Origin: Puniceicoccaceae bacterium K14
Lineage (GTDB): Bacteria > Verrucomicrobiota > Verrucomicrobiia > Opitutales > Opitutaceae
Direction: 5' to 3'
DNA: 41,042 nt
Assembly: GCA_022538095.1 (NCBI GenBank)
Contig: JAKYXN010000047.1
Location: 1-41,042 of the forward strand
In this document: in pieces, positions 1,233-27,747 of the stretch
Position numbering within the stretch: the first letter of the stretch is position 1
Layout: every line of letters begins with the position of its first letter
The notes under the pieces: model-generated
The model's input: the letters and a program-made list of their open reading frames with translations, nothing else
Told to the model about the DNA's origin: nothing
Database searches by the model: none
Made by a program: the position numbers and the translations under genes

Positions 1233-1350
1233 TGCAGCGTGTGGGAAGAGTTGGTTGAGGTTGCTGTAGATGACTTAGTTCGTAATTCCTGTCGAAATAC
1301 AAAGGGTGAAGCTACGCTGCGTCAAGCATGGGGAGCTTTGGAGGAATATA

Positions 1351-4007: not shown

Positions 4008-4008
4008 T

Positions 4009-11809: not shown

Positions 11810-12508
11810 ATGAAGAATCACCATCTTAATAGCTTTCCCTATAATGGACATTTGCTCCTCTTGGCTCTCTTAATCCTTTCTCAAAATTTTCTTTCAATAA
11901 TGGGTGGAGAAACAGGAACTTCAGACCTGCCTAAAGCTACTGAAAATCGGCAATTGGAAGACCATCAGAATGGGAACGAGTCGGCTGCAGACGAAGAGTT
12001 GAACAGTGAAGGTAAAGCTTCAACGGCTAGCCATAATAAGGCTAAGCCAGTTCCGAGTCTCCAAGAAATCGAGAAGGAGCTATTCGGTGAAATTCAGCGT
12101 CTCCGTTGGAAGATCGGTGCTAATTCGAAAATGCTCGACTCTCTGAAGTCGGGACGTGAGGAAGGCGCTGTCAACGAATCAGGCATAGTGATTCAAATGG
12201 AGCGTGAGAAAGCGCTTTTCGAGGGGCTTAAGCGCGATGAAGAACTCCTTTTGAGTTTGGAAAAAGAGCATGCGAAGCTCTTGAAACGTACGAAAGCAGC
12301 GTCATCTCAAGAGAAAATTGTACAGAAACTGAAGAAGACTGTTGTGGATGCTGATATAATCGAAGGCCCTCAATTTGAAGAAGAGAAAAGAGTCCGTGGT
12401 TCCGCTGCACTTCTTTTTGACTCGATTACTACTTCAGCACCGATTGAAGGAAAGACCTCCACCGATTTGCTCGAGAAGACTGTTAAAGAAATTAGTACAG
12501 AGCAATAG
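11810..12508 (+). CDS. Exported coiled-coil protein, first gene of the envelope-machine operon
   Basis: The 232-residue product has a hydrophobic N-terminal export signal or anchor (about residues 14-34). A polar low-complexity stretch rich in Glu, Asn, Ser and Ala (about 35-80) comes next. A coiled-coil region with heptad spacing (about 85-170, e.g. LQEIEKELFGEIQRLRWKI and KALFEGLKRDEELLLSLEKE) follows. No catalytic motif is visible. It is the first of a run of plus-strand genes up to 26744, with 69 bases to the next. A structural or scaffold role in the envelope is inferred from composition. Confidence 0.75.
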   Translation: MKNHHLNSFPYNGHLLLLALLILSQNFLSIMGGETGTSDLPKATENRQLEDHQNGNESAADEELNSEGKASTASHNKAKPVPSLQEIEKELFGEIQRLRWKIGANSKMLDSLKSGREEGAVNESGIVIQMEREKALFEGLKRDEELLLSLEKEHAKLLKRTKAASSQEKIVQKLKKTVVDADIIEGPQFEEEKRVRGSAALLFDSITTSAPIEGKTSTDLLEKTVKEISTEQ

Positions 12509-12577
12509 AGGATAGAATTCATCTGAACTATACAGACTCTAATAACCCACCCTTTTAACTCACAACTTTTAACTATT

Positions 12578-14047
12578 ATGAATTTGAGAATTCCAATGCG
12601 TATCCTTAGCGGCATTTTTGTCGCTTTGAGTTTTTCTCTTGTAGTTCCGCAAACGACAGAAGCGGCTTATCGACTCACGGTCGGAGTGGCTCCGTTCAGC
12701 CATGACGTTTCAACGTTGAAAGAGGAGGAATCCGAAACCACATCTGTTCCGCCGGAAGATGACGAAGCGATAGTTATTCCTGGCCTTGATGGGATGGAAA
12801 TAGAGATCGAAGAAGCTGAGAAAACTGAAGAAGAGGTGGCGGAGGAAGCTGCCGCATTATCTGCGGCTATTATTCAACCTGAATTTGAACGAGCCAGTTT
12901 AGAGATTCGAAACGCAGAAGCCTTAGCTCTACAAAATTATCTTAGAATAATGTTGGATAAAAAAGGAGGCGAACTTTTTGATAAAGTCATTAATGCGCCT
13001 GCGGGAGTAAATAGTTCTAGTTCTTTGGCGGCATCTGTAGACTTATGGGTGGAAGTTACAGTAGAAGCGGCGAATGCTGAAAAATTTGCTATTAGAGTGA
13101 ACGCTTCTACGAGCGCCGGTGAATCTATTTTGAAAAACAAGAAATTCAGTCAAGCGATTGCGAAAGACGTTTTTGTCAACAGCAAGAATCAGCTTAAAGA
13201 GGGCTACCATGAAACCTTAAGCAAAGTTTCTGAAGCTATTGTATCTGGCCTTAAGGCAAAGAATTTAAAGGGTGACTACGATCGTTACGAAGACTTCACC
13301 AACCTGAAATTCGCTGTTTACATGGCACCTGAGGTTTTTAACAGGGACAATTACCTCAACCGCCGCGGAAGTAAGATTAAGTCGCTCCCCTCGGAGGATG
13401 ACAGTTATTATCGAGAGGCTCTAGAAGCGCGGTTGGCCACGGTAGAAATTTACCAGAATTTCGATAGCAATGTTGTCGAGACAGGGCGCAGTAAATCCTA
13501 TTCGAGCTACGCGGTTTGGCGTTATAGAAGTTTTCTTGCAGCAAATGAATATCTTGAAGCTCGAAAGGAAATAAAGGCCTTACAAGGTAAAATTGCTAAA
13601 GCAGTCGCTCTGAAGCTACTCGGGCCGATCGTTATCAACGAATTTCTCAAAAATAATAACGTCGCTCAGGAGCTTGGTTTGGGGGAAGATTTTGACAAGA
13701 TACAGGACGCCGCTGTTATTATCCTTACTCTTAAGTCGCTCTCGGATATTTTCATGATCCAAGGTGGTCGCATTCAATTCAACGAAGAGAAGTTACGCCA
13801 GAGTGACTCTAATTTCGGTAAGAAGTTCACTGAACGCCGTGAGAAGATTGGAGAGCTTTCTGTGGATTCTAACGTTCACGCTGAAAAGCTGATCGAGTTG
13901 CAAAAATCTTTTACGCATGATCTTGCCCCAATTGATATCGAATACCGAGGTCGTTCCTTTACGTTAACCGGACAAATTGAAGATAAGGTGGCCGCTTTGC
14001 AGCGAATCTTGAGAGAAGATTACAAACAAAGTGTCTCTCAGGCTTGA
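12578..14047 (+). CDS. Exported protein with CsgG/TolB-like N-terminal strand and acidic insert
   Basis: The 489-residue product has a signal peptide (about 1-30, ending in TTEAA). The mature N-terminus YRLTVGVAPFSHD resembles the first strand of CsgG/TolB-N-like proteins, which open with 'ItVapF'. A highly acidic insert (about 48-95, with repeated EE, EIEIEEAEK and EEEVAEEAA) separates this strand from a segment that again looks CsgG-like: 'ALALQNYLRIMLDKKGG' then 'AASVDLWVEVTVEAANAE'. The C-terminal half is helical and charged with no motif I know. The likeness is weak and by eye. If right, it may be a periplasmic or outer-membrane assembly factor that works with the convergent CsgG-family gene at 26785-27747. 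Confidence 0.7.
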   Translation: MNLRIPMRILSGIFVALSFSLVVPQTTEAAYRLTVGVAPFSHDVSTLKEEESETTSVPPEDDEAIVIPGLDGMEIEIEEAEKTEEEVAEEAAALSAAIIQPEFERASLEIRNAEALALQNYLRIMLDKKGGELFDKVINAPAGVNSSSSLAASVDLWVEVTVEAANAEKFAIRVNASTSAGESILKNKKFSQAIAKDVFVNSKNQLKEGYHETLSKVSEAIVSGLKAKNLKGDYDRYEDFTNLKFAVYMAPEVFNRDNYLNRRGSKIKSLPSEDDSYYREALEARLATVEIYQNFDSNVVETGRSKSYSSYAVWRYRSFLAANEYLEARKEIKALQGKIAKAVALKLLGPIVINEFLKNNNVAQELGLGEDFDKIQDAAVIILTLKSLSDIFMIQGGRIQFNEEKLRQSDSNFGKKFTERREKIGELSVDSNVHAEKLIELQKSFTHDLAPIDIEYRGRSFTLTGQIEDKVAALQRILREDYKQSVSQA

Positions 14048-14077
14048 AGCCAAGCAGGTAGTCTCTCGCCTTCATCA

Positions 14078-15724
14078 TTGAAATTTAGACCTGTGATTCC
14101 TCTCTCACTCAGCAATCGTATTGGACGCATTTATACAGCTTTATTTGTATTGGCGGCAGGAGTAGTTTTTCACAATCCGAGTTTGTTAGCTCAGGAAATT
14201 GGAACTGACGAGGCTCTCAATGGAGATGCTCAGGCCGTCAAGAAAAGCTATGATGCATTACATGAAAAGTATAGCAAAAAGCTTGAGTCCATGTCGAATG
14301 ATGATTTTAAAAATAAGTTCTTTCTTGAAATAATGGAGGATGTTTCGAGTGGAGATGATCGTATCCAAGAATTGGAACAATTAGGGGACGCTGCGGGGCT
14401 TGTGATAGCATATAACGCTCAGGCAAAACTTATTGAACAGTTTTTGGAAATGATTGAGACGTCGGATTCGTTGGGGAGCCGACGTCACGGAGTGCTAGCG
14501 GAGCTCGATCGTTTGGAGAAAGATGGAGCAAGTCGACACGAAGAAACGCAAAACCGCTATTCTGCATTGAGAAAGGTGTTTGCCGATATCGAATCCTCAA
14601 CTATCAAGGAAGGGGATTTTGAACTGGCCCAAGAGCAGTTAGAGGAATTGTCGCTTCGTTGTTCTTTGTTGCAGTCGGACATTGATCGATTGTTTGAGCT
14701 ACAATGGCGTGCTGCTCAGGAAGCGTTTCGAGTAGCTTCTGATTCGATGGATACTGAACTGCTGGCTGTGCGCAAATTACGCCCAAGTTTTTCTGCTGCT
14801 CAGTCTCTTCATCAGAGGGTGAAAAAGCGGTATAGAATAGTGCCTTTGTTGAAAGCTGCCCAAGCGGATGAGCGAGACAAAAACCATGCTCAAGCGATTA
14901 GTTTATATGAATCGATTTTGGAACTCGATCCGATGACAGAAGAGGCCCAAGGCAAAGTTCAAGAAATCGAAGCACTTGCTAGCGAGCAAATCATTAAGGA
15001 GTCTTTGCGAGAGGCTTTGGAATTGATTACCGATGGGAAACCGAACATGGCCCTTGTCCCTGCCAAGCGTGCTCTCAAGCTTTCGCAAGTCTACGGTTTT
15101 GACGTTACTTCGGCTCAGTCACTTGTCGATAGAGCGAAAAGGGACGATAGAAGTGAAAAAGTCAGGTTTGGGACCCAACAAATTCGAATCGCATTGGATA
15201 ACAAGGATTGGGGAAATGTGATCACGGTAGCGGATTCGGTTCTCAACATCCAACCAGGCGACCATTTTGCGAGCACTGCTCGGGAGAAGGCTGTTGAGCA
15301 ACGAAGGCAAATTGCCAGTATGGTGGAAGTCATCGCTCAAGGGAACTTTCATTTAGACAAGGCAAGTCAAGAAATGGATCGTCCGCTTGTCGAGTACGTC
15401 GTCAATTTGCTTGATGAGTCGAGGGCTAAGTATCCGGATGCTGTTGATGAAAATTTCGTAGTATTAGAGAAACGATCGAAGGAACTCCTTGCGAGTTTTG
15501 ATAGTACGATCGATGTGGAGTTTGTCTCGAATCGGCGAACGGAGATCGAACTGCGCGGATATGGAAAATTAGGAAAGTTTAGTCGTAAAACGGTGGCATT
15601 GAAACCTGGGAAATACAAAGCTCGCTGTACGCAGAAAGGGTATCGCGATAGGTTGATAGAAATAGAAATTAGACCAGGCGAGAATCGGGAGCCAATTTTG
15701 TTGGAGGCGGGAAAAAAGTTTTGA
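14078..15724 (+). CDS. Exported TPR protein with C-terminal PEGA-like domain
   Basis: A TTG start at 14078 is accepted because the signal peptide begins right there (MKFRPVIPLS...HNPSLLAQE, about 39 residues) and no ATG lies near. The 548-residue product is largely helical. A tetratricopeptide-like region spans about 260-410, with 'AQADERDKNHAQAISLYESIL' and 'ALDNKDWGNVITVADSVLNI' as helix pairs. The last 75 residues (IDVEFVSNRRTEIELRGYGK...LKPGKYKARCTQKGY) have the pattern of a PEGA domain, a small surface-protein beta domain. PEGA modules recur in the next gene, so the two products may contact the same envelope ligand or each other. The stop abuts the next reading frame. Confidence 0.78.
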   Translation: MKFRPVIPLSLSNRIGRIYTALFVLAAGVVFHNPSLLAQEIGTDEALNGDAQAVKKSYDALHEKYSKKLESMSNDDFKNKFFLEIMEDVSSGDDRIQELEQLGDAAGLVIAYNAQAKLIEQFLEMIETSDSLGSRRHGVLAELDRLEKDGASRHEETQNRYSALRKVFADIESSTIKEGDFELAQEQLEELSLRCSLLQSDIDRLFELQWRAAQEAFRVASDSMDTELLAVRKLRPSFSAAQSLHQRVKKRYRIVPLLKAAQADERDKNHAQAISLYESILELDPMTEEAQGKVQEIEALASEQIIKESLREALELITDGKPNMALVPAKRALKLSQVYGFDVTSAQSLVDRAKRDDRSEKVRFGTQQIRIALDNKDWGNVITVADSVLNIQPGDHFASTAREKAVEQRRQIASMVEVIAQGNFHLDKASQEMDRPLVEYVVNLLDESRAKYPDAVDENFVVLEKRSKELLASFDSTIDVEFVSNRRTEIELRGYGKLGKFSRKTVALKPGKYKARCTQKGYRDRLIEIEIRPGENREPILLEAGKKF

Positions 15725-15739
15725 TTGAGGTATGATTAC

Positions 15740-17863
15740 ATGAGCAAGGAGAAACGTTTAATGGAAAACCGTACTGGTGGAGTGGGTATGATGGTAATCC
15801 TCGCGATTATGCTTGGTGCTTTGGTGATCGGAAGCATTATTGTTTTCCGTGCTATGATGTTAGCTCCAGTGCTCTTTCAGTTTGAGGTGGAGCCAGAGAA
15901 TGTGGAATACGCACTCCAGATAAATGCGACGCAAACTGTTAAGGGACAAGGAGCAAGTATGGTGGAGCTAAAAGAGGGAGTTAATCGGGTAGAGATAGTT
16001 GCTCCCGGCTATGAGAAGTATGTGAGCGAATTTATGGTAGATTCCGAGGGCGATAAAGCGTTGGCTATCAAGTTGAGACCTTTGCCCGGCTATTTGATGA
16101 TTGAGACCAAAGATGCGGAGACAGGTCGTGTTGTGGAAGGTATCGTAATCAAGATTGATGGCGAGGAAATCGGGACGACGCCCATGAGCTCCTATCGAAT
16201 AGACCCTGGAGTTTACAAGATTACTCTTGGTGACACAGGAAGCTATGTCGGGGTTCGTGGGGAAACTGAAGTCACGGTAAAAGGTGGAGGTATAGATCAA
16301 ACTGAAACCATCGAGTTGATACAGAATACCGCGGAGGTCACCTTTAGGGTGCAGCCGCGTGGGGCGAGTATTTTGGATCTTAACCGAGGTGGACTTTCAT
16401 TGGGGGTTGTCGCAACGGGAGAGAAAACGATCTCTTTTGATCTAAACCAGAATAGAAATCCGAGCATCGCTTTCGAACTCGACAACCATGAGACTTATAA
16501 TTGGAGCACTCCATTGATGCCTGGACAATCACGAACGATTGACATTAAAATGGAACCAAAGCCAGCGGTTATCAAATTTAGTAGCGAACCTAGTGGAGCA
16601 AACATCTATCTTGATGGCGAATTTGTGGGTAAAACACCGATAGAAAAAATCGAAATTCCACCCAAAACAGACCTACAAGTTGTGATATCTAAATCCGGAT
16701 ACGAGGACAAAAGTCGGACCCTCGGGGGCATGATGCCGAATACATCACGGTTCATCAATGTGAAGCTTGTATCCAAAACCGGTAAGCTTGAGATTAAAAG
16801 CGATATTGAGGCGGCGGTTATAATCGACGGCGAGTTTGCTGGGTTCACGCCAGTTGATGGCGAGTTTCTTGCGGGAATTCGTCAAGTAACATTGCGAGCT
16901 CCTGGATACGAGGAAGAGCAATTTACGGTTGAATTGATTGCGGGAGATACATACCCATTGCATCACGATTTTAAGGAGCCTGTGGCTGAAGTTGAGGTCG
17001 AGGAGGAGCGGGAAATCAAGTTGCCAAACAAATTGGAACTAGTCGAAGGCCTCGAATTTATTCTTATTGGAGCAGGGGTTTTCGAATTCGGGGAGCCTGG
17101 AGATTCGAAGGAAATCACTATTTCTGAGCCATTCTACGTTAGTACGACAGAGGTACCAAGTTTCGTTTATGAGTCGATATCAGGCAACAGACGCGGTGAA
17201 TTAGACAAGAACGGTTTCAATCTTAATAAGAGTGATTTTCCGGCAGTTAGGGTTAGTTGGAACGACGTCGCTTTCTTTTGCAATGAATTCAATACAACTC
17301 TCGGTTTCGGGGAAGTTTACCGTCAAGTCGGCTCTAGCTATACAACTACCGAGGAAGCCGTTGGGCGGGGAATTCGCATGCCAACCGAGGCAGAGTATGA
17401 GTATTTGATGCGAATAGACGATGGCAGCTTTCCACGTGTTTTTGGTTGGGGCGATGAGTGGCCACCTCCAAAATTTACAGATAATTTTGCTGATAAGACG
17501 GGTGCTCGTAATGACGTAGAAAATCCGATTAATGGATATGATGATGGGAATGCATTTTCCTCTCAAGTAGCTTCTTTCCGTTCGCACCCGGATGGCGTAT
17601 ACAATCTAGCAGGAAACGTTAGAGAATGGTGCCACGATGGGTTTGAACGTTCTTTCTGGCGTTATGCAAACTCGGTAGACCCGTTCAATTTTGCTGATGT
17701 TAGTTTACGCGTTGTAAAAGGAGGGAGTTACAATACGGGACAGAAGCGCGAGTTGATGGTCTCTTACCGAGATGGAAAGTCTAGAGAATCGAAAGCAGAT
17801 GACCTAGGGTTTCGTGTCGTCCTGCCATCAGAAGCTTATATAACCCTGCTGAAGTCAAAATGA
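15740..17863 (+). CDS. Membrane-anchored PEGA-repeat protein with C-terminal FGE-like domain
   Basis: I start at ATG 15740, which has GAGG nine bases upstream; an in-frame TTG at 15725 would add five residues. The 707-residue product has one helix near the N-terminus (about 15-40) and then several PEGA-type beta modules. The clearest are 'KFSSEPSGANIYLDGEFVGKTP' and 'EIKSDIEAAVIIDGEFAGFTP'. A formylglycine-generating-enzyme-like domain occupies about residues 435-700, with 'IGAGVFEFG', 'FPAVRVSWNDVAFFCNEFN', 'RMPTEAEYEYLMR', 'GVYNLAGNVREWCHDGF' and 'RVVKGGSYN...LGFRVV'. The catalytic cysteine pair of true sulfatase activators near the KGGSY segment is absent, so it is probably a binding or structural domain as in DUF323 proteins. 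It overlaps the next gene by four bases. Confidence 0.88.
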   Translation: MSKEKRLMENRTGGVGMMVILAIMLGALVIGSIIVFRAMMLAPVLFQFEVEPENVEYALQINATQTVKGQGASMVELKEGVNRVEIVAPGYEKYVSEFMVDSEGDKALAIKLRPLPGYLMIETKDAETGRVVEGIVIKIDGEEIGTTPMSSYRIDPGVYKITLGDTGSYVGVRGETEVTVKGGGIDQTETIELIQNTAEVTFRVQPRGASILDLNRGGLSLGVVATGEKTISFDLNQNRNPSIAFELDNHETYNWSTPLMPGQSRTIDIKMEPKPAVIKFSSEPSGANIYLDGEFVGKTPIEKIEIPPKTDLQVVISKSGYEDKSRTLGGMMPNTSRFINVKLVSKTGKLEIKSDIEAAVIIDGEFAGFTPVDGEFLAGIRQVTLRAPGYEEEQFTVELIAGDTYPLHHDFKEPVAEVEVEEEREIKLPNKLELVEGLEFILIGAGVFEFGEPGDSKEITISEPFYVSTTEVPSFVYESISGNRRGELDKNGFNLNKSDFPAVRVSWNDVAFFCNEFNTTLGFGEVYRQVGSSYTTTEEAVGRGIRMPTEAEYEYLMRIDDGSFPRVFGWGDEWPPPKFTDNFADKTGARNDVENPINGYDDGNAFSSQVASFRSHPDGVYNLAGNVREWCHDGFERSFWRYANSVDPFNFADVSLRVVKGGSYNTGQKRELMVSYRDGKSRESKADDLGFRVVLPSEAYITLLKSK

Positions 17864-18126
17864 ATAGGTCAATCGTATTTCGAACGCTAAAAACGTATAT
17901 CGCATTCGCTTTCTTAGGATCGCCAGTGGCAGTGTTTTCGCAAGTTAACAGCGGGCCTCAAGCTCCGAAGGGATCTTCGATGCAAATGACGAGGAAATCA
18001 CAGCCGAAGATAGATAAGGTCGCACGACGAAAAGCGGCTCGTGAAAAGGCAGATAAAATCATGCAAAAAGGAAAGCCATCCCGGTATCCTTACCGGTCTT
18101 CGGTAGAAATGCCTTCAGACGTCTAA
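17860..18126 (+). CDS. Small basic exported protein
   Basis: The 88-residue product begins within the stop of the PEGA/FGE gene (ATGA overlap) and ends with the next gene's start (TAATG), so all three are translationally coupled. It has a signal peptide (about 1-28, VFSQ). The mature part is short, strongly basic and probably disordered (PKIDKVARRKAAREKADKIM). The next gene product is very acidic, so a charge-based interaction is possible; that is inference only. No family is recognised. Confidence 0.7.
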   Translation: MNRSIVFRTLKTYIAFAFLGSPVAVFSQVNSGPQAPKGSSMQMTRKSQPKIDKVARRKAAREKADKIMQKGKPSRYPYRSSVEMPSDV

Positions 18127-20366
18127 TGAAACGATCAACTACAAGGTTTATTTGCTGGAGCGTTTTATTTGTGGTAACTCCTCTTGGCAGCTTCGGCCAG
18201 CGCGGTCCTTATGATATTGAAGATCGCGAAGTTGATGCGAAGGGAAGCGCGGGTGATGGGCATGAAGCTGGTGCTAAGGACGATTCGGAACCGCAAACGC
18301 AAAGCGGGGAGTCTTCCCAATCTCAATCACCTAGCGAGGACACTACGCCTCCTGATTCCCCGTCAGAGAGCAAAGAATCGGCTGAGAGCCGTGCTGCGAA
18401 GCAAATCGAAATTCAAGCAAAAGCTCTAGAGGCTTCGCTAGAAAAACTTGATTCGAAGAGCAAAGAAGCTGAAGCGGATTCAAGCGATGAAGCGAAAGCT
18501 GTATCGGCTGCGGAAGCCGCAGAAGAGGTCGCTGAAAATGCGGAGAAAATGGGGGCTGGTGCTGCTTCCGAGAGCAAAGAGGAACTTGAAGAGGCGTTAG
18601 AGAGTGCGGGTGCTGCCGCTCAAGAGGCGATGACCGAGAAGGTTGAGGAACTTGAGAAGATGGTCAACGAAGCATTGCAGGATCCGGAGGGAAAAGGCCT
18701 CACCGAAAAGCAAAAAAAGCAGCTTGAAGAGACCGCTGAGGGACTCGAATCGCTGCAGGCGGAGTTGGAAAATCAGCAAGGAGAACCAACCAGCCCTCAA
18801 AAAGCGGCCGAACAGGCTGAAGAATTAAGCGAGCTTGCTAAAGCAAGCTCTGAAGCGCTCGACAAAAAGAGTGCCGAAGAAAAAGCGAGAAATTCTGAAA
18901 AGGAATTCTCTTCTATGGAGAGTAGTTTACACGAGCTGCAGAAAGCGATGGATGAAAGTCAAAGTGGGTCGGCCGGAGCGGAGCAGAAGCTAAAAAGGGC
19001 GTCTCAACAGCTGCAGAAGCAAGCGGAGCAGATGTCAGGTGATCCTGAATCCGATTCTGATCCCAGTGATTCGGCTGAGTCTCAGGCTGAAAAAGCAGCG
19101 GAGGCTGCTTCTAAAGCAATGGAGAAAGAGCTTGAAGCATTGGAGAAAGCGATCGATGGCCATACTGGAGAACGAGAGGAACAAGATCCGAAAACGAAAA
19201 AAGCTTTGGAGGAATTAAAGAAGGAGGTTTCTGATTTAAAGAAAGAGGTTTCTCAGACTCCGCCATCTGCAGAGAATGCTGAGACGCTTCAAAAGCAAGC
19301 GGAGACAGCGAAGGACTTGGCCGATAAGGTTCAAAAAGCCATGACGGGGCAGACATCGTCCGAAGAGATGGAGCAAGCGGAATCCGAAGCGATCGAATCG
19401 GAGCAGGCCGAAGAGAATTCAGAAGTTTCCGACTTAGCGGAAATGATGGAGGAGATGAAGAATTCTAAGAGCGAGTTAATGAAGGAGCGGATGGCGGAGA
19501 AAGCTATGCAGCAGGCAAGTGAAATGATGAACAAGCCAATGCCTTCTAATTTCGATCAACAATCGACCGAGCAACAGATGCAGCAGGCGGCAGAGGCATC
19601 CTCTGAAGCCATGCAGCAGTCGATGCAGAATATGCAATCGCAGCTGCAACAACAACAGCAACAGATGCAACAGCAATCGGAGACTTTACAGGAGATGGAA
19701 CAGTCATCCGAAACGCAGGAAATGGTACAGCAAGCTAACGAGACGTTACAGGAGCAGTCTCAAAAAATGCAGAACCTGCAGCAACAGGCTCAAGAGCTTA
19801 AGGCACAGATGCAGCAGACCCCGCCGACCTCAGAAAATATGGAGCAAATTGCTAAGCAAGCCCAGCAAGCGAGCAGGATTTCGGAGCAAGCTCAGGCCGC
19901 TCAGCAGCAAGCTCAGCAGGAGATGTCTCAGATGTCGCAGGAGATGGCTCAAGAAGCGCAAAACCAACTTGAGGAAATGGAAGAGGCTTTGGAGCAGCAT
20001 GCTCAGGAGATTGAAAATCGTCCCAATGCGACGTCGAGTGCTCGTGAGGAGACTGCTGCTATGCAGGAAAAAGTAGAGCAATTGAAACAGGAGGCAGCGA
20101 CCATGCAGCCATCGAGCTCAAATATTTCTGAAGTTGCGGAGCATGCTCGTAAAGTCAGTCAACTTGCTCTCCAGGTACCGAATATCAGTTCGCATCGATT
20201 AAAGACTGCCGCTATCTATCAGATTGAAACTGAAAAAACTAAGACGACTGCACGCTCAGAAGTTTATCAGGGACAAAATCTACTTGATTGGGAAGTGTCC
20301 GATTCTGAGCTGTTGGGCGAAACCCCCGAGGGCTTAATCGAAGAGGAAGAAGTGGAGGAATGGTGA
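18126..20366 (+). CDS. Very large Gln/Glu/Met-rich exported coiled-coil protein
   Basis: The 746-residue product has a signal peptide (about 1-24, GSFGQ), a disordered Ser/Glu/Gln stretch (about 30-95), and then some 560 residues of almost pure helix-forming sequence. Early coils are rich in Glu, Ala and Lys. The part at about 455-660 is rich in Gln and Met (for example MQQSMQNMQSQLQQQQQQ). Heptad hydrophobic spacing suggests a long parallel fibre of several hundred angstroms, long enough to span a periplasm. The C-terminus has a short non-coiled part and a very acidic end (EEEEVEEW). Codon use is biased by repeats, so similarity searches will give low-complexity hits. It sits just upstream of the channel gene. 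Confidence 0.8.
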   Translation: MKRSTTRFICWSVLFVVTPLGSFGQRGPYDIEDREVDAKGSAGDGHEAGAKDDSEPQTQSGESSQSQSPSEDTTPPDSPSESKESAESRAAKQIEIQAKALEASLEKLDSKSKEAEADSSDEAKAVSAAEAAEEVAENAEKMGAGAASESKEELEEALESAGAAAQEAMTEKVEELEKMVNEALQDPEGKGLTEKQKKQLEETAEGLESLQAELENQQGEPTSPQKAAEQAEELSELAKASSEALDKKSAEEKARNSEKEFSSMESSLHELQKAMDESQSGSAGAEQKLKRASQQLQKQAEQMSGDPESDSDPSDSAESQAEKAAEAASKAMEKELEALEKAIDGHTGEREEQDPKTKKALEELKKEVSDLKKEVSQTPPSAENAETLQKQAETAKDLADKVQKAMTGQTSSEEMEQAESEAIESEQAEENSEVSDLAEMMEEMKNSKSELMKERMAEKAMQQASEMMNKPMPSNFDQQSTEQQMQQAAEASSEAMQQSMQNMQSQLQQQQQQMQQQSETLQEMEQSSETQEMVQQANETLQEQSQKMQNLQQQAQELKAQMQQTPPTSENMEQIAKQAQQASRISEQAQAAQQQAQQEMSQMSQEMAQEAQNQLEEMEEALEQHAQEIENRPNATSSAREETAAMQEKVEQLKQEAATMQPSSSNISEVAEHARKVSQLALQVPNISSHRLKTAAIYQIETEKTKTTARSEVYQGQNLLDWEVSDSELLGETPEGLIEEEEVEEW

Positions 20367-20370
20367 GAAG

Positions 20371-21387
20371 ATGAAGGTTTTATTTAAGATATTTGATTTT
20401 CAAATACGATTCTTGGAACTATTTTGTTTGATAGTAGGGGGTGTTTTCGCATTGGATCTTCGTGCAGATGATTTGGTGAATGTGAGTGCCATTGCTAAAC
20501 GTCTTAGTCTTGCTGACACAAAGAGCGAAGGAGCGTGGATGGAGCCTATGGCTCAGATATCTGATGGTTCTGAAGGTTCGATGACATGGCGTATGGGTGA
20601 CATCGATAATTTTGGTCAAACCTGGCGGATTGCTCATAATCCATTTAGTGGAGAGATAGCATCTCGCCTCGAAAAAGGTGTGATTCCAGAAGCGGCCTTA
20701 GAAAAACTCCCAAAAGGTGTGGACGAGGAGTCTTATATTCTAGGGCTGGCGGTTAGTGGCGGAGAACTCGACGGCGTAACAGATTCTGTTTTCAATCAGA
20801 GCTTAGCTGAGACTAGCCCTTCGAGTTTCGAGCTCCAACTGCCGCTGGATGGATTTTCTCGAACTGTGGAGAGGCTTGTCTTACAGTTCTACCTAGTAAG
20901 CTCTGGTCAGAGTGAGGACCAGAATGAATGGGCCGTATCAGTAAACGGCAAATCTCTCCCCGAGCTTGGACGTCTCATCAGCCTCACTAAAATGAGGCCG
21001 CGGCAGGGGTACCTCTTTTCCTACCAGATCGATGCGAACCACATTGACCCTGATAACCCGATTATTTCCATTCAGTTGGGGTTCGACGATAGGCGTTCAC
21101 ACACGGAGTTCGCTTTGGACTTCATCAAAGTCATCGCTGATTGCGATACCCCGAATTTCGACGGGGTTGTTCACGGAATCGTTCGTTCTAGTGGAAGTGC
21201 TCGTCCGGTGCCGAGTGTTTTGGTGAGTTGCCAAGGAAAAACGATCCGAACAGATGAAGGTGGCACTTTTCGATTCGATAGCATCTCCGCTGGCCAAGCC
21301 TACGTTTGTGTCGATGGAGACCTGGATAATTTCAAGACCATCAGCGTTTTTGATGGTGATACTCTAAAATTATACTTCGCAAAATAA
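20371..21387 (+). CDS. Exported protein with carboxypeptidase-regulatory-like domain
   Basis: 338 residues with an N-terminal signal (about 1-29, through a hydrophobic LFCLIVGGVFALDL segment). The central part (about 60-265) is rich in beta strands and resembles carbohydrate-binding jelly-roll modules in texture ('WRIAHNPFSG', 'LVLQFYLVSSGQ', 'YQIDANHIDPDNPIISIQLG'), but I cannot name a family. Residues about 267-338 fit a carboxypeptidase-regulatory-like fold: 'GVVHGIVRSSGSARPVPSVLVSCQGKTIRTDEGGTFRFDSI'. Such folds are common in surface and outer-membrane proteins. It starts four bases after the preceding stop region with a weak GAGAAG ribosome site. Confidence 0.78.
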   Translation: MKVLFKIFDFQIRFLELFCLIVGGVFALDLRADDLVNVSAIAKRLSLADTKSEGAWMEPMAQISDGSEGSMTWRMGDIDNFGQTWRIAHNPFSGEIASRLEKGVIPEAALEKLPKGVDEESYILGLAVSGGELDGVTDSVFNQSLAETSPSSFELQLPLDGFSRTVERLVLQFYLVSSGQSEDQNEWAVSVNGKSLPELGRLISLTKMRPRQGYLFSYQIDANHIDPDNPIISIQLGFDDRRSHTEFALDFIKVIADCDTPNFDGVVHGIVRSSGSARPVPSVLVSCQGKTIRTDEGGTFRFDSISAGQAYVCVDGDLDNFKTISVFDGDTLKLYFAK

Positions 21388-21392
21388 GACCA

Positions 21393-22268
21393 ATGACAGC
21401 AAACTCCTCTAGCAGGCCTACTCGCAAGAAGTTCCCATTTTCTTTCGAGAATTTTTTAACCATCTTTGCCTTCATCTTTGCATATGGGCTGATCGAAGCT
21501 ATTTACCGGTTTATCGTGAATCCGCGGGTAGAGTTGTTTTATGCAAAAGACAGCAGTCCGGGAGCGACTTCGACTTGGATAATACTTGATGGCTACGAGC
21601 AGCAGTTGACCTTGGTGCTGTTTTTCTTGTCCTTGTCTATTTTGTTCTATAAATTCATACTCGTTTTTAGAGAACGAAATATGCTTACGGTTGACGTAAT
21701 TGGCCTAGGTAAAGGCAGTTTAATTCACCGTGAGGAGGCCAGCGTATTTGCCCTTGGAATGGAGGAAAATTTGCCAGCGGATATGCCGCCTCCCTTGTCA
21801 TTCGCGTTTCCAAGCCTGAAAAACTCTCTAGTGTTTCGAGCCTTTCGCAAAGGTTTGGATCGTTTTAACGATACTCGAGAAAGAGAGACAAATGAGGATA
21901 AAGATGACCTAGGCGATGTTCGAGAGGAAATTTCTCAAACGATTAGTAATGTTTGTGAAAGCGAGCTTAGCAAGCTGGAGTCGCAACTTGCGATGATTAA
22001 CTATATCGCATGGGCCATTCCCTCGGTAGGCTTTATAGGAACGGTTCGCGGTATCGGTGCTGCTCTTGCCAAAGCGGATATGGTCGGGCAAGAAGGTGGA
22101 TTGGGCGAAGTGACAGGAGCCTTGGGATTAGCGTTTAATTCTACTCTTGTTTCGTTGCTCGTCAGTATGGTCCTGATGTTTCTCATCTATGTTCTGAAAC
22201 GTATGCAGGAAGGCTTGGTTATGGAGTCTGAAGAATACTGCCAGGAACGTCTGCTAAGCCACATCTAA
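21393..22268 (+). CDS. MotA/TolQ/ExbB-family proton channel protein
   Basis: The 291-residue inner-membrane protein has four helices: about 20-42, 71-92, 204-225 and 240-267. A cytoplasmic domain of about 110 residues lies between helices two and three, larger than the matching loop of simple ExbB. The diagnostic segment is AIPSVGFIGTVRGIGAALA followed by LGEVTGALGLAFNSTLVSLLVSMV. This matches the ExbB/TolQ/MotA signature (GLLGTV.G...AF and L..AL..T..GL..A). These proteins form proton- or sodium-driven motors with a single-helix ExbD/MotB-type partner carrying a membrane Asp. No classic ExbD lies in the window. The two downstream von Willebrand proteins, each with one helix and a conserved Asp at its start, are the obvious candidates. 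Confidence 0.92.
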   Translation: MTANSSSRPTRKKFPFSFENFLTIFAFIFAYGLIEAIYRFIVNPRVELFYAKDSSPGATSTWIILDGYEQQLTLVLFFLSLSILFYKFILVFRERNMLTVDVIGLGKGSLIHREEASVFALGMEENLPADMPPPLSFAFPSLKNSLVFRAFRKGLDRFNDTRERETNEDKDDLGDVREEISQTISNVCESELSKLESQLAMINYIAWAIPSVGFIGTVRGIGAALAKADMVGQEGGLGEVTGALGLAFNSTLVSLLVSMVLMFLIYVLKRMQEGLVMESEEYCQERLLSHI

Positions 22269-22276
22269 CATCCTGT

Positions 22277-23776
22277 ATGAAGTATTTGGGGATAGATTTG
22301 AGTGATGCTAATGTATCTCTCGCCTTATGGGATCGTGCAGCTGCTTCACAATTTGAAGTGCGGACTCAACCGCCGTTGCGGCCTATTGTAACTGCGGTTA
22401 AAAAAAATAGTCCTATTACAGGGAAATCTGCATTTGAACTGATTGCTAGCAAACCTAAGTCTGTTTGTTTACAAATTCTATCGGGTAAGCCCAATGAGTC
22501 GGTTGAAGAAGGAGACGAGGTCAAAGGCAGCAAGGCAGACCAATTGGCGATATTTTTACAGATGCTATTCAAGCAAGAGAAGATCTTGCTTCAGGATTTT
22601 AAGTCTGTCGGAGTTGTGGTGGATGATTGGCTCGATCCAGTGTGGTTGCCTGTCATTTCTGACATACTCGAACGGGCGGGCGTAGATGAGAGCGTATTCT
22701 TTTCTCGGCAAGCTCTAGCCGCGACAATTCATTTGCAACACACAGGAGAAAATGAAAAGGATGTTTGTTCTCTGGATACTGGTTTTATGGGTGCAGTATC
22801 GCGACGATTCAAAGCTGATGGGGAAAAGGTTGGTCCTGTAGATGACGCAGAGGTTATTACATGGAATCTGGTGGCGGAGTATTCTGGGCTACTCAAGAAT
22901 GTACTAGCTGCGATTCGAAAGCATTTTCGTTTGGATTTGCGACGAGCGGATCCAGATGCCGTCATAGGTTTGCTTGATGACCTTTCTTTGGCCCTTCTAG
23001 ACTCTTTGGGCTCCTTCAACGTCCGGAAATTTGTTGCCGATTCTGATTCTGAACTTATCCAACTTAAAACGCTTTTGTTGGAATCTGCATTGGGAAATCA
23101 GCTTATGAAAATGCAGAGCTTTACGAAAGATGATTCGGACGAGTTTGTCGTGACTGGTCTCAGTGGAGCAGTCGCACTTACAGTGAATCTCGGAGGGAAT
23201 GAGCCGTCGTTTGTGTCTGGAGCGGATTTGGCTAGGAATGCATCAGTAGCGGCCTCTTGGATTGTTGATCAAAAATTAGGCTGTAGCGATCGATTGGAGA
23301 CAATACCATTCGCAGCACTAAGGCCACGTGCCCAAAAGAATAGTATTATGCCGGAGCCATTGGTAGAGCCCGAAGCCTTGGTAAATACAGCGAAAGTGCA
23401 AGGCAACCCACGTAGTTTTGGCGAAGTGTTTACTTCTGAATCAAAGTGGGTTTGTCCCGAAGCGGCTAGCAAAGTATTATTTCAAGGATGGCTTTTTGAT
23501 TTTTCGACCTCGAGTTTTAGGGTCCGCTCTGGGAGTGATGCTGTAGTTGGAGAACTTGTGATTGGCTCAGAGTTTGTCGATTACGAAGGAGAGCTACTTA
23601 GCTTTTCTTACCAAAATGGAAAATCGTATTTGGAGCCTTTGACGAATCGGCTCCGGTTTCTGCGAAATTTGAAGAGAGTGAATACGAAGGTCGAGGTGTT
23701 CGTAGGGGACATCGTGGAGATCGAGAATACGCGTGTATTGTTTATGTTAACTCAGGATACATTTTTAAACCGTTAA
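22277..23776 (+). CDS. Degenerate Hsp70/actin-fold protein with C-terminal FHA-like domain
   Basis: 499 residues, no signal peptide, cytoplasmic. The start MKYLGIDLSDANVSLALWD mirrors the phosphate-1 motif of Hsp70 (GIDLGTTNS.VA). Further matches in order are ITGKSAFELIASKP, VVVDDWLDPVWLPVISDILERAGV (Hsp70: '..VPA.F.D.QR.AT.DA...AGL'), ALAATIHLQ...CSLDTGF (phosphate-2 area) and DEFVVTGLSGAV (adenosine motif). Key glycines of phosphate-1 and phosphate-2 are changed, so ATP use is doubtful. The last 100 residues (ELVIGSE...LLSFSYQNGKSYLEP...VEVFVGDIVEIENTRVLFML) have the strand order of an FHA-like beta sandwich. I infer a cytoplasmic regulator or assembly chaperone of the adjacent channel. The assignment is by motif order, not computed. 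Confidence 0.7.
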   Translation: MKYLGIDLSDANVSLALWDRAAASQFEVRTQPPLRPIVTAVKKNSPITGKSAFELIASKPKSVCLQILSGKPNESVEEGDEVKGSKADQLAIFLQMLFKQEKILLQDFKSVGVVVDDWLDPVWLPVISDILERAGVDESVFFSRQALAATIHLQHTGENEKDVCSLDTGFMGAVSRRFKADGEKVGPVDDAEVITWNLVAEYSGLLKNVLAAIRKHFRLDLRRADPDAVIGLLDDLSLALLDSLGSFNVRKFVADSDSELIQLKTLLLESALGNQLMKMQSFTKDDSDEFVVTGLSGAVALTVNLGGNEPSFVSGADLARNASVAASWIVDQKLGCSDRLETIPFAALRPRAQKNSIMPEPLVEPEALVNTAKVQGNPRSFGEVFTSESKWVCPEAASKVLFQGWLFDFSTSSFRVRSGSDAVVGELVIGSEFVDYEGELLSFSYQNGKSYLEPLTNRLRFLRNLKRVNTKVEVFVGDIVEIENTRVLFMLTQDTFLNR

Positions 23777-23803
23777 TACATAGTTTGCTGAAATAAATAA
23801 TTT

Positions 23804-24919
23804 ATGAAAGCTAGGAAAAAAGAAGAAGGCGACATATTTGGTCTTTCATTTATGGACTGCATTTGCTGCGGTTTTGGAGCGGTGATATTAATGTTTATTC
23901 TCACTACAGGCGAGAATTCAGAAGAAGTGAGTGAGGCTAAGGACAGGTTGAATGTCGCAATTCAAGGAACTCAAAACAAACTCAAAAGCGAAGAGGAGTC
24001 ATTGGCGAAGATCGAAGCAGAGATTGCTTCTCTTGAGGGAGATCTAGGAGAAATTCAGTCAGCCCTAGAAAATGCTGACAAAGAAAAGATAGAAGCTGAA
24101 GAAGAATTAGCTGCTGCAATAGAGACGAAGAGTAAGCAATCGGAGGAACTTAAGGAGTTGTTGGAAAAGGAGCAAGGGATGTCAAAAGAGATTGCTGCAA
24201 TTAAGCAGGAGATTGCTAGTATGTCTGATGGTGCAACTGGATCTACCGGTAAAGCGGTTTCTCCCTTTCAGGGAGACGGACGCCGCCACTACTTGACTGG
24301 TATGAAAGTCGATGGCGAGAGGGTTGCTATTTTAGTGGATACCTCCTCTAGCATGTTGAGCGAGTCGATTAGCGGGGTTGCTCAATTTCGTGGAGTAACT
24401 GATCCCAGTAAGATTTCATCGCGTAAATGGACTCGAGTTTTGGATACAGTTGATTGGTTGATGGCTACCAATGAATCCAAGTATTATCAAGTAGTGACTT
24501 ACAATCAAAATGCTCAGTTTCTTTTGCCGAAATCTGCAGGGGATTGGATTCCGACTAACGATCCTCCTATCGCGGAGGATGTTTCCGAAGCAATGTGGGG
24601 AACCTTGCCTGAGGGTGGCTCGAATCTAGAGGAAGCAATACGCTTGGTCTCAGAGCTCTCACCCAAGCCGGATAACGTTTTTGTGATCACCGATAGTTTG
24701 CCTACACATTCTAGTGGAGTAACTGGACTGAAAGTAAGTGCTGTTGAACGAGTCTCACATTTTCAAGGAGCCTATAGAAAAGCTGTGACGAATAGTTTTC
24801 CGATGAACATCATTTTGTTTCCACTTGATGGAGACTTTAATGCTCCTGGATTGTATTGGAAATTAGCGGATGCGACTCAAGGTTCGCTTTTTACGCCTTC
24901 TCCAAACTGGCCCAATTAA
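23804..24919 (+). CDS. Membrane-anchored von Willebrand factor A protein 1, possible ExbD-like stator
   Basis: The 371-residue product has a short basic/acidic cytoplasmic start and one membrane helix (about 13-34) with the motif LSFMDCICCGFGAVIL, including Asp18 and a CICC cluster. A coiled coil follows (about 38-141), then a von Willebrand A domain (about 160-371) with a metal site DTSSS (Asp179) and a downstream VFVITDS strand. The layout (one N-terminal helix with Asp near the start, then a periplasmic domain) copies ExbD/TolR/MotB. The channel gene lies two genes upstream. I infer that it is the rotating or stator partner, with the von Willebrand domain replacing the usual peptidoglycan- or receptor-binding domain. 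It is a paralogue of the next gene. Confidence 0.87.
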   Translation: MKARKKEEGDIFGLSFMDCICCGFGAVILMFILTTGENSEEVSEAKDRLNVAIQGTQNKLKSEEESLAKIEAEIASLEGDLGEIQSALENADKEKIEAEEELAAAIETKSKQSEELKELLEKEQGMSKEIAAIKQEIASMSDGATGSTGKAVSPFQGDGRRHYLTGMKVDGERVAILVDTSSSMLSESISGVAQFRGVTDPSKISSRKWTRVLDTVDWLMATNESKYYQVVTYNQNAQFLLPKSAGDWIPTNDPPIAEDVSEAMWGTLPEGGSNLEEAIRLVSELSPKPDNVFVITDSLPTHSSGVTGLKVSAVERVSHFQGAYRKAVTNSFPMNIILFPLDGDFNAPGLYWKLADATQGSLFTPSPNWPN

Positions 24920-24925
24920 TACACG

Positions 24926-26035
24926 ATGAAAACAAGAGCGAAGAAGCAACTTAATATCTTTAGCCTGTCTTTCATGGACTGTATCTGCTGCGGTTTCGGT
25001 GCTGTTATTCTCCTTTTCGTACTTAACGAGGGATCTACCATTGGTGCAATGGGGGAGGTTTACGAGACTAGTCAGGAGGAGGAGGACGCTATGAATGAAA
25101 AGCGAGCAGAAATAATGATTAATACGCTCAAAGCCAAGATGAAGCGCGATCTTATCAAGCAGGAAATTGCGAAAACGAAAAAAAAACTTCAGGCTGTTGA
25201 CCAGGAAGTCGCTACATTGTACAATGGTGCTTCAGAAGTAATGAATAGGGTTCCCGATCTATCCCAAGCTGCAACTTCTGTTGAGGGGATGAGTAAGCAA
25301 CTTCACGAAGCGAAGCAAGAGCTGGAGAAGAAGCGGTCTATTCCGAAAGCGTGGAATGCCGACCTCGTCGGCGGAATCCCTGCTGATAGTAAATATGTTA
25401 TTTTCATTATCGATACGTCAGGAAGTATGACAGCTGCTGAGTATCGGATGCTGGATACTATTAAGGACAAATTGCGTGACGTCCTGGCTATGTATCCAGA
25501 AGCTGAGGGGTTTCAGATTTTAAGCTCAGACGGAGCTTATATGTTGGATAAAAGAATGGCTTCCAATCGAAGGCAGGCATATAACAATCAAGCGTGGGGG
25601 AGTCTCTTGTTTGGTGGACAACCATCGATTCCTCCTGTTCGCGGAAAAAGTCAGTTCGCCGGTAAGTGGGTCACGCCGAATCAAAAAGGGCGTCAGTTAA
25701 TTTTTGATACATTCATCGAATACGTACAAATGGGAGTCCCTTGTCAAAGCAGCCCTCGTCGCGGATTGGAGGAGGCCTTTAGCTCTTACTCTAGCGGAGG
25801 GGAAGAGATCTCGATCTTTGTTTTTGGGGATGACTGGGGTGATGACATCGACCAGATGGTCAAACTGATTGACGGATATAATACAAAAGGAAATTTTCGT
25901 ATACATGGCGTCGGTTTTCCTTCGATTCTGACTCGGAGTAACAAACTTGACAGCAACGGCTCTTTTCAGTTCGCGAACGCTTTACGCTGGTTGTCTGAAG
26001 AAAATGGAGGAGCCTTCATTGGCACTTCTCGCTAA
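24926..26035 (+). CDS. Membrane-anchored von Willebrand factor A protein 2, paralogue of the previous gene
   Basis: 369 residues with the same architecture: a helix at about 13-34 containing the identical 16-residue motif LSFMDCICCGFGAVIL with Asp18, a coiled coil (about 48-140) and a von Willebrand A domain (about 150-369). The metal-ion-dependent adhesion site is DTSGS (Asp163). Outside the anchor and the metal site the two proteins are clearly different, so they diverged long ago and probably form a heteromeric pair. An alternative reading is that the helices only anchor a surface adhesin. It starts six bases after the previous stop. Confidence 0.87.
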   Translation: MKTRAKKQLNIFSLSFMDCICCGFGAVILLFVLNEGSTIGAMGEVYETSQEEEDAMNEKRAEIMINTLKAKMKRDLIKQEIAKTKKKLQAVDQEVATLYNGASEVMNRVPDLSQAATSVEGMSKQLHEAKQELEKKRSIPKAWNADLVGGIPADSKYVIFIIDTSGSMTAAEYRMLDTIKDKLRDVLAMYPEAEGFQILSSDGAYMLDKRMASNRRQAYNNQAWGSLLFGGQPSIPPVRGKSQFAGKWVTPNQKGRQLIFDTFIEYVQMGVPCQSSPRRGLEEAFSSYSSGGEEISIFVFGDDWGDDIDQMVKLIDGYNTKGNFRIHGVGFPSILTRSNKLDSNGSFQFANALRWLSEENGGAFIGTSR

Positions 26036-26054
26036 CTTTGCAATAAAGGTATAA

Positions 26055-26744
26055 ATGGAGAGAGCGGATAAAGAAAAACAGTTTTGGACTTTGTCGAACC
26101 ATTATCAAACGTCTTTTAGGCGGCTGAGAGCTTTGCGTCAGGAAGTACTGCTTGAAACCGAGATTACGCGTTCGTCGGCTCCAAACAAAGTGAGCAAAGG
26201 AGGTGTGAATTTGCTCCACTGGATTGTTTTTCTTTTTGTTGCTGCGTCCGTTGCAGGTGGAGGCTATTTTGCATATTATAATTTTATGGGTGAGGGAGCC
26301 GTCTCTCGAAAATCAGCGACACTTCCAACGCTGCCACAATTTCAAGGTAATCGTATAGATGGAGACACCGGATTAGAAACTCCGTTTTATTCCTCGACCC
26401 TTACAGGTCGAACCGTGGCGCTATTGTTTTGGGGAAGTGATAGCAAATCGATAGACTGGTTAAAGGCTATGCGAAATCATTCTGACAGTGGGGTGCTTTC
26501 TGGCTCCAATGCTGTGATTGTTTGCGTATTTGTCGGTCAGGATCGCGACCAGGCAATGAAGCTTGTTCGGCGATATGGAAGCGATAAGCTCATAGTTCTT
26601 GATGATAGCGACGCAGAAAACGTAAGTAGAGCATTCGGTGAACCAAGTATACCAGCATTATTTGCTTATGATGCTTTTGGTCGCCAAGTAGGAGACGAAC
26701 TTTTTCCGGAGCAGGTTGAGATGGCTTTCTCGCTTAGCCAGTAA
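26055..26744 (+). CDS. Membrane-anchored thioredoxin-fold protein lacking the CxxC motif
   Basis: 229 residues: a cytoplasmic N-terminus of about 52 residues, one helix (about 53-77) and an extracytoplasmic thioredoxin-like domain (about 95-229). The fold is recognised from TGRTVALLFWGSDSKSIDWL (the 'vlv.FWA.WC..C' strand and helix), then VIVCVFVGQD and the cis-proline strand PSIPALFAYD (Pro200). In place of CxxC stands GSDSKS, so it cannot act as a disulfide oxidoreductase; a binding or scaffolding role is more likely. It is the last gene of the operon, 20 bases after the second von Willebrand gene and convergent with the CsgG-family gene. Confidence 0.8.
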   Translation: MERADKEKQFWTLSNHYQTSFRRLRALRQEVLLETEITRSSAPNKVSKGGVNLLHWIVFLFVAASVAGGGYFAYYNFMGEGAVSRKSATLPTLPQFQGNRIDGDTGLETPFYSSTLTGRTVALLFWGSDSKSIDWLKAMRNHSDSGVLSGSNAVIVCVFVGQDRDQAMKLVRRYGSDKLIVLDDSDAENVSRAFGEPSIPALFAYDAFGRQVGDELFPEQVEMAFSLSQ

Positions 26745-26784: not shown

Positions 26785-27747
26785 TCACCAGTTGCTTGTT
26801 GCTGGTTTAAAAACGACGCTGTCACCCCTGGTAGGAGCAACGCCTTCAATTAACTTGCAATAAGCCACTTTGTCAGAGGTGCGGGTAACTTCGATGGATC
26901 CGATAGCAGTTTCTTCCGGTAGGTCGAGAACCTCGCTTGTATTCGGCCCACCTACTTTGCGGACTTCGAAAATGGTTCCAGCTGAAACGCCGTAGATCTC
27001 TCCTCTATTGATGACGATCATTTCGTCGGACTTTATCATTACGACGTTTGCCGCTAAATCATAGTCTTTCATTTCTAGGACAATAAAATCGGTAGTCGCC
27101 GAGATACAGTCTTGAGCCGCTTGGCCAAGGGGTGTTTTTGCGAAACTATCCAACCTTCCTGGTACTCCATTTTTGTAGAATCCGGTTTGAATTTTTGAAC
27201 GACCTGCGACTCCGACGATATGTTTACTCGCTACTACTTCGTTTGTTGTTGTGTCGACTACGTTAATGATGACCTCAATTTCTGCTCTGTCACTATTACC
27301 GTTGCTTCGAATATTTTTTGAGCTACCTCCGTCATTGCTAACTGTTTTATTTTCTAGCCGTGTTATGCTTCCGGCTACAATATACTTGGTGCTGGATATT
27401 AGCCCTGTTGGGGCAAAGGCTTTTGCCTGAGTGGCGCGACCACTTTTTTGGAGATTTCTTTCAATTGGGATGTTCGAAAGTTCTTCGCGATCCGCAATTA
27501 CGAATCGCCCAGTTTCAAAGAGAGCTTCTTCTAGCATTACAGCGAGGTTGCTGGAAAGATCGTTGTCATAATTTCGCTCATTAGCTGTCTCGAAATTAGT
27601 AACGCCAATTGCATGTTTAATCCCGGTATAATCTGTATTAGTCAAATCAGACTTCAGGTCTGCTGCTTGACTTTGCTTAACAGCGAAGGTAAGCGTGGCG
27701 AGGATGGCCAAAGAGGCAACTGTAAGTAAAATCTTGTAGGTTAACAT
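26785..27747 (-). CDS. CsgG/HfaB-family curli-assembly-like outer-membrane protein
   Basis: 320 residues with a signal peptide (about 1-28, SQAA) and no lipobox cysteine. The CsgG pattern is clear: IGVTNFETANERNYDNDLSSNLAVMLEEALFETGRFVIADREEL, then KYIVAGSITRLENKTVSN and 'AEIEVIINVVDTTTNEVVASKHIVGVAG'. This family forms secretion pores or holdfast-anchor rings in the outer membrane. A C-terminal extension (about 235-320, VMIKSDEMIVINRGEIYGVSAGTIFEVRK) resembles the FlgT-C-like barrel found in some CsgG proteins. Convergent with the twelve-gene operon and only 40 bases from its end, it may supply an outer-membrane ring for that machine; this is inferred from proximity. Confidence 0.87.
   Translation of the reverse strand: MLTYKILLTVASLAILATLTFAVKQSQAADLKSDLTNTDYTGIKHAIGVTNFETANERNYDNDLSSNLAVMLEEALFETGRFVIADREELSNIPIERNLQKSGRATQAKAFAPTGLISSTKYIVAGSITRLENKTVSNDGGSSKNIRSNGNSDRAEIEVIINVVDTTTNEVVASKHIVGVAGRSKIQTGFYKNGVPGRLDSFAKTPLGQAAQDCISATTDFIVLEMKDYDLAANVVMIKSDEMIVINRGEIYGVSAGTIFEVRKVGGPNTSEVLDLPEETAIGSIEVTRTSDKVAYCKLIEGVAPTRGDSVVFKPATSNW

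Follow-up and report, generated by a model that had tools for sequence, protein, structure and literature searches.

MotA/TolQ/ExbB-type motors drive motility and import and help to maintain the cell envelope. TolQ-like motors with heterologous TPH-vWA pairs, which bear a TolR/ExbD-like pore helix, were proposed in 2025 using AlphaFold 3 (AF3) models (Mol Biol Evol, PMC12204202); they were reported from Verrucomicrobia and Proteobacteria, and a gliding-like role was suggested for related vWA transducers. As described there, these motors have in common a TolQ-like gene beside two different vWA genes, an Asp-bearing pore helix in each vWA protein, and no ExbD or TolR. Here, we analyze a locus of this type in the 41,042-nucleotide (nt) contig JAKYXN010000047.1 of Puniceicoccaceae bacterium K14 (assembly GCA_022538095.1; Verrucomicrobiota, Opitutaceae), the whole of which is called the window. 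Positions 11810-26744 hold twelve open reading frames (ORFs; W01 to W12), all on the plus strand with intergenic gaps of -4 to +69 nt, just as the initial annotation of this DNA had described. Four of these genes, W08-W11, form a core with a fixed order: TolQ-like channel, Hsp70-like protein, VWA1 and VWA2. The locus probably encodes a TolQ-type 5:2 motor that is driven by protons or sodium and that has, in place of the ExbD/TolR pair, two distinct von Willebrand factor A (VWA) proteins.

The initial annotation had proposed an undescribed, ion-driven envelope machine. The ion-driven part of that proposal gains support from the pore-helix Asp found in all 65 VWA proteins examined and from the conserved order of the core. 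The motor core cannot be called undescribed, because a TolQ-like channel with a heterologous vWA pair had already been predicted (PMC12204202). For the Hsp70-fold partner of the core, the division of the core into two clades and the surrounding PEGA/FGE operon, no report was found in the literature searched, i.e., open PubMed Central, with preprints not covered; in the main text of PMC12204202, the terms Hsp70, DnaK and FGE are absent, actin and FHA do not occur in a relevant sense, and its section 8 does not name PEGA. The likeness to the TPH-vWA motors is drawn from their description in that paper, which uses an Idiomarina reference.

The four-gene core and its products

The core comprises the following genes:

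21393-22268, plus strand: W08, TolQ/ExbB/MotA-like channel subunit, 291 residues (Pfam MotA_ExbB, 5.9e-15; hydropathy; pore motifs)
22277-23776, plus strand: W09, cytoplasmic protein resembling the Hsp70 nucleotide-binding domain (NBD), whose phosphate loops are eroded and whose C-terminal domain is FHA-like, 499 residues (profile; AlphaFold 2 (AF2) model)
23804-24919, plus strand: W10 (VWA1), with Asp18 in an N-terminal pore helix, a coiled coil and a VWA domain containing DxSxS (Pfam VWA_2, 4.2e-8; alignment)
24926-26035, plus strand: W11 (VWA2), with Asp18 in an N-terminal pore helix, a coiled coil and a VWA domain containing DTSGS (AF2 model, VWA fold)

The Pfam match of W08 bears out the MotA/TolQ/ExbB channel that had been proposed. 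Three hydrophobic segments of this protein lie above the hydropathy cut, and a fourth (about residues 199-220) was recognized by reading. Among curated families, the channel matches TolQ best: NCBIfam tolQ scores 1.6e-9, which is below the cut-off, and both PDB matches under 0.001 are TolQ. The pore motif GTVRG is present in 34/34 channels and the motif NST in 33/34, the remaining one being truncated. Pore threonines in the predicted channel and an Asp in the predicted VWA pore helices are the signature of 5:2 ion motors. The locus resembles TolQ-TolR and ExbB-ExbD in its channel family and in the Asp-bearing single helix; unlike those systems, it has two different partners with a periplasmic coiled coil and a VWA domain, and its channel seems to have an additional N-terminal helix (by reading). 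No Pfam match to ExbD, TolR or MotB was found among eleven of the twelve products (W05 was not scanned).

W10 and W11 have one N-terminal hydrophobic helix each, according to hydropathy, and the Asp within this helix was found in 33/33 VWA1 proteins (32 by pattern and L084_37 by eye) and 32/32 VWA2 proteins, 65 in all, in agreement with the earlier description of two single-helix VWA proteins of ExbD-like topology. The Pfam VWA match of W11 (0.0048) is below the cut-off; its AF2 model contains a VWA domain (best Z 15.6, 160 residues aligned, 2.4 Å) and has a mean predicted local distance difference test score (pLDDT) of 73.2, with values of mostly 79-94 in the C-terminal part and a dip at residues 331-350. 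The Asp of the metal site (MIDAS) is present in 32/32 VWA2 proteins vs. 10/33 VWA1 proteins, the others having Glu (15) or Arg (8), which argues for two distinct roles. A conserved Cys-rich run of the DCICCGFGA type follows the Asp in both helices (23804-23905 and 24926-25025); such a run is unusual for ExbD-like helices.

W09 alone gave no match in Pfam, NCBIfam or any other library scanned. A profile of 21 relatives of the W09 family matched DnaK at 8.1e-15 over residues 1-330, and the AF2 model of W09 (pLDDT 72.7) matched the Hsp70 NBD with Z 23.4 to 6nhk_A (319 residues aligned, 4.0 Å); these two results uphold the Hsp70/actin-fold cytoplasmic protein of the initial annotation. Among the 50 VIA-align matches listed for this model, none was PilM, FtsA or MreB. 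W09 resembles Hsp70/DnaK in the NBD fold over about residues 1-334 and differs from it in the altered phosphate loops of its family and in an FHA-like tail, found where the substrate domain would be. The canonical Hsp70 phosphate loops (GTT and GGGT type) were found in 0/21 family members in the aligned columns: the GTT place reads SD, CD or similar, and the GGGT place reads LLLHAT, HLHST or similar. From these altered loops, ATP hydrolysis by W09 appears unlikely. The last ~100 residues look FHA-like, with Pfam FHA matching 2/21 family members (L034 at 21.4 bits, cut-off 20.7) and not W09 itself. With W09 as the query, a BLAST search of 236 sampled genomes of the class matched no genome but its own, because the protein is very divergent (45% identity to Pelagicoccus mobilis and 10-16% to the other 19 relatives). 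The Hsp70-like gene (E up to 1e-50) is present in 53/150 family genomes, and 52 of these 53 have VWA1. In 52/55 loci, the gene lies on the strand of VWA1 and no more than 700 nt from the matched part, as counted over 93 VWA1 places of 91 genomes with the fragments G819:C170, G816 and G889:C547 left out; two of the other three loci have VWA1 on another contig, and the third lies in a genome that is 75% complete.

Conservation and descent of the core

Using the VWA1 profile, we found VWA1 in 92/252 genomes of the family, 23/387 of the phylum and 1/197 of the class of genome G156, which is not the class of K14; a BLAST search with the channel gave matches in 15/38 relatives. The 92/252, 23/387 and 15/38 counts include the own genome, and many assemblies in these samples are incomplete. 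At most 5 candidates per genome were scored for the phylum, 8 for the family, and 10 for the G156 class and for the 150-genome Hsp70 search. Neighborhoods were examined in 38 stretches, compared with a total of 92 VWA1-positive genomes in the family. Over all 33 VWA1 loci, the channel is present in 31, VWA2 in 32 and the Hsp70-like gene in 27; the TolQ-like gene beside two different vWA genes, which defines the TPH-vWA motors, is seen both in the window and in nearly all of these loci. Since the profiles were built partly from loci among the 33 (the VWA2 profile without L031), the 20 loci that were found by VWA1 alone (L073-L092) provide the fairer count. In these, the channel lies upstream in 18/20, VWA2 comes next in 19/20, and the Hsp70-like gene lies between in 15/20, five of the 15 genes being weak and mostly shorter (L073, L074, L076-L078; E 3e-5 to 9e-12). 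The core genes therefore stay together in relatives, where separation would have counted against the machine as it was initially proposed, and the recurrence of the same order puts it beyond chance. The module is usually present once per genome, with recurring neighbors.

There are two clades of the core, both of them represented in the K14 genome. The second four-gene copy (L009, 12577-17105 of G000:C312) lies on another contig and belongs to the other clade; Glu replaces the VWA1 metal-site Asp in this copy. Ten VWA1 proteins have the metal-site Asp, and the eight of them that were placed in the trees (the window, P. mobilis, L029, L073-L075, L077 and L078; L076 and L079 were left out) group together in the VWA1 tree as well as in the channel tree, both midpoint-rooted. 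In both trees, which were read without branch support, the window copy groups with L029, a member of the same order, and with loci outside the class, and not with the copies of its own family; the core set therefore seems to move as a unit. Tree distances run parallel, with correlations of 0.89-0.92 among the channel, VWA1 and VWA2 (30 loci) and of 0.89-0.93 with the Hsp70-like protein (19 loci).

Several observations weigh against the reading of the core as one ion-driven motor with an inactive Hsp70-fold partner. The parallel trees are partly explained by shared descent, which raises correlations of this kind, and the values were computed without a control family. In the AF2 model of W11, confidence in the pore helix is low, with block means of 38-52, and this segment is drawn as a strand, so that the helix assignment rests on hydropathy and alignment. 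W09 keeps D-T-G (D-x-G) in the second phosphate-loop region, which is compatible with nucleotide binding. The FHA call comes from only two of the 21 family members, and when the tail profile was compared to PDB, FHA proteins appeared only at E 0.18, behind short matches to unrelated proteins (0.12-0.13). The Hsp70-like gene is absent from the motor loci L082-L085 (family f11) and L027, and hence the Hsp70-like protein is not essential to the motor. Among the remaining loci, no channel was found next to the VWA pair of L079, VWA2 is missing at L076, and L026 has the channel and the Hsp70-like gene without the VWA pair; L081 is cut by a contig end.

Two further arrangements were observed around related channels. 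At L026 (5118-9581 of the stretch from G032), the channel and the Hsp70-like gene are followed by PIN-like, VSR-like and DNA methylase-like genes (by reading). L039 (10008-13160) and L040 (10906-13921), both from G025, contain related channels, each with two different ExbD-like partners; these ExbB loci were set aside as another arrangement, the VWA profiles giving only 20-28 bits there.

The wider operon and its surroundings

The other eight genes of the run are as follows:

11810-12508, plus strand: W01, exported coiled-coil protein (coil by reading), 232 residues (56% over 167 residues to P. mobilis; no Pfam match)
12578-14047, plus strand: W02, exported protein, fold without known match, 489 residues (67% to P. 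mobilis)
14078-15724, plus strand: W03, exported protein whose C-terminal part is TPR-like and PEGA-like, 548 residues (hhalign to L075_13, 1.7e-12)
15725-17863, plus strand: W04, membrane-anchored protein with PEGA repeats and an FGE-sulfatase-like domain, 712 residues (Pfam PEGA 3.3e-28, FGE 6.9e-27)
17860-18126, plus strand: W05, small exported protein, 88 residues (42% to P. mobilis; outside the Pfam scan)
18126-20366, plus strand: W06, exported Q/E/S-rich coiled-coil protein (coil by reading), 746 residues (52% over 470 residues to P. mobilis; no Pfam match)
20371-21387, plus strand: W07, exported protein with a weak carboxypeptidase-regulatory-like C-terminus, 338 residues (CarboxypepD_reg 2.5e-4, below the cut-off; 60% to P. 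mobilis)
26055-26744, plus strand: W12, protein with one helix and a possible thioredoxin-like domain that lacks CxxC (47% to P. mobilis)

An N-terminal hydrophobic segment is present in 7/7 of the proteins W01-W07, as expected for the seven exported proteins of the initial annotation; in W04, this segment appears to anchor the protein in the membrane and not to be a signal that is cleaved. The PEGA/FGE part proposed earlier is clearly recognized in W04, whose only two cysteines (519 and 636) presumably do not correspond to the FGE active-site pair. W03 itself has no Pfam match; relatives of it carry Pfam TPR, and relatives occur in 11 other loci. The thioredoxin-fold membrane protein held up in part: W12 has the single helix, and the fold is weak, with no Pfam match in W12. 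The likely counterpart at the same place, L029_62, reaches Thioredoxin_8 only at 0.013, under the cut-off, and its hhalign comparison to W12 gives E 7e-4 with a probability of only 27%. W12 has one Cys and therefore no CxxC.

The host is near Pelagicoccus, and P. mobilis has all twelve genes in identical order, with 42-85% identity over the aligned parts. Among the 38 stretches examined, the complete set was found only in these two genomes. Homologues of W03 and W04 precede the core in the same order in L075 (genome G156; hhalign 1.7e-12 and 3.9e-33, respectively), and several family-type loci have a W03-like gene downstream on the opposite strand. The matches of W02 (to L075_10, E 8e-4, probability only 25%) and W12 are weak but well-placed, ranking next among the 96 hhalign pairs compared. 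W02 was found in 1/223 order genomes sampled, i.e., its own. The idea that all twelve genes form one widely conserved unit is ruled out by the rarity of W02 and by loci that hold the core without the exported set; the conserved core consists of four genes only, with W03 and W04 recurring in part. Scans for promoters and terminators in the window remained at chance level, and a single transcript is therefore suggested by spacing alone. Rfam (gathering threshold) and tRNA scans of the window gave no matches, and neither did a plasmid search with VWA1.

Some neighboring genes deserve mention. There are two clusters of lipoprotein-like genes, one found across 22 loci and the other across 18, and the first 14 members of each are divergent from and upstream of the core; at L009 (10941-12325) and its equivalents, DUF4136-like and glycine-zipper-like lipoprotein genes, below the Pfam cut-off, diverge from the family-type core. 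At L075 (5107-7296), the W03-like protein is extended at its N-terminus by a long region which, by reading, resembles a protein kinase (Kdo kinase match only 0.087). In the window, a CsgG-family gene (26785-27747, minus strand) is convergent with the operon end, and no counterpart was found beside the P. mobilis copy in the DNA examined there. The minus strand at 498-8209 has a run of CHASE2-cyclase, TPR-CHAT and S8 peptidase genes, which may be a signaling or conflict island; its GAF match is weak and below the cut-off, and a sigma-like gene was identified by reading only.

Proposed mechanism and alternative explanations

The proposed motor would have five W08 subunits arranged around two helices, one from W10 and one from W11, which is an inferred 5:2 stoichiometry. 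Ions would load on Asp18 and turn the W10/W11 heterodimer. The turn would pass up a coiled-coil stalk of ~14 nm, as estimated from 93 helical residues in the W11 model at 0.15 nm each, to the two VWA heads. At the wall or outer membrane, these heads would grip or pull exported partners, namely the PEGA and FGE-like W03/W04. W09, an Hsp70 fold that has probably lost ATP hydrolysis, would stay on the cytoplasmic side, where it would most likely anchor or gate the motor, perhaps through its FHA-like domain. It is a tentative suggestion, which we hold with less than even confidence, that a dead Hsp70 is a stationary part of a rotary, ion-driven motor on its cytoplasmic side, with the FHA-like tail making it a phosphorylation-controlled stator anchor or clutch and the asymmetric VWA heterodimer acting as the turning stalk.

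Instead of a force machine, the core could be an ion channel or sensor in which the VWA heads bind metal or ligand and open the channel, while the Hsp70/FHA protein reads the signal from the cytoplasm. The FHA-like tail, the altered Hsp70 loops and the invariant VWA2 metal-site Asp (32/32) would suit such signaling; however, pore threonines with a helix Asp are a motor signature, and the long helical stalk of W11 suits force transfer, which makes this explanation rather unlikely. Nor do we favor a role in gliding, surface adhesion or secretion, for which the outward-facing part of the motor would be the FGE/PEGA protein or the VWA heads. The gliding-like role suggested for related vWA transducers (PMC12204202) and the PEGA/FGE and other exported parts of the operon speak for it. 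However, the GldK match of W04 covers the FGE domain only, at 61.5 bits vs. a cut-off of 350, most cores occur without the exported set, and the association with FliG is not significant, so that we consider this role unlikely. With type IX GldK/PorK, the locus shares an FGE-like domain that is encoded alongside a motor in an envelope operon; GldL, GldM and GldN gave no match among the ten products scanned. FliG was not shown in 39/92 module genomes (Fisher p 0.24 for association in the family), and a flagellar accessory was rejected on this basis; unlike MotAB stators, the locus also has a VWA domain instead of the OmpA-type wall-binding domain of MotB.

A substitute for Tol-Pal, tethering the outer membrane to the wall in a family nearly devoid of TolB, would agree with the channel matching TolQ best among curated families and with the presence of TolB_N in only 2/252 family genomes, K14 not being one of them. 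No TolB, TolA or Pal match was found among the products scanned (TolA and Pal were not searched genome-wide). However, 159/252 family genomes have neither TolB_N nor the module, which rules out a general substitute and leaves this explanation clearly improbable. Zorya consists of ZorA with ZorB and ZorC/D or ZorE. The channel has a weak ZorA match (20.4 bits), the sole match among the ten proteins scanned; nine window proteins and one relative (W01, W05 and W06 were not scanned) gave no match to ZorB, ZorC or ZorD, and the occurrence of mostly one module per genome with recurring neighbors also argues against an anti-phage motor of this type, which we regard as extremely improbable. The view of the initial annotation that the locus does not fit Tol-Pal, flagellar stators, Zorya or the type IX system agrees with the results for each of them.

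We know of no Hsp70-fold part of another 5:2 motor, and of no other MotA/TolQ/ExbB-type motor with such a cytoplasmic part. A turning pair of two different VWA proteins, together with a degenerate Hsp70 that travels with it, would add a cytoplasmic part to this class of motors, and the culturable Pelagicoccus and its relatives would provide a defined gene set for asking what such motors drive.

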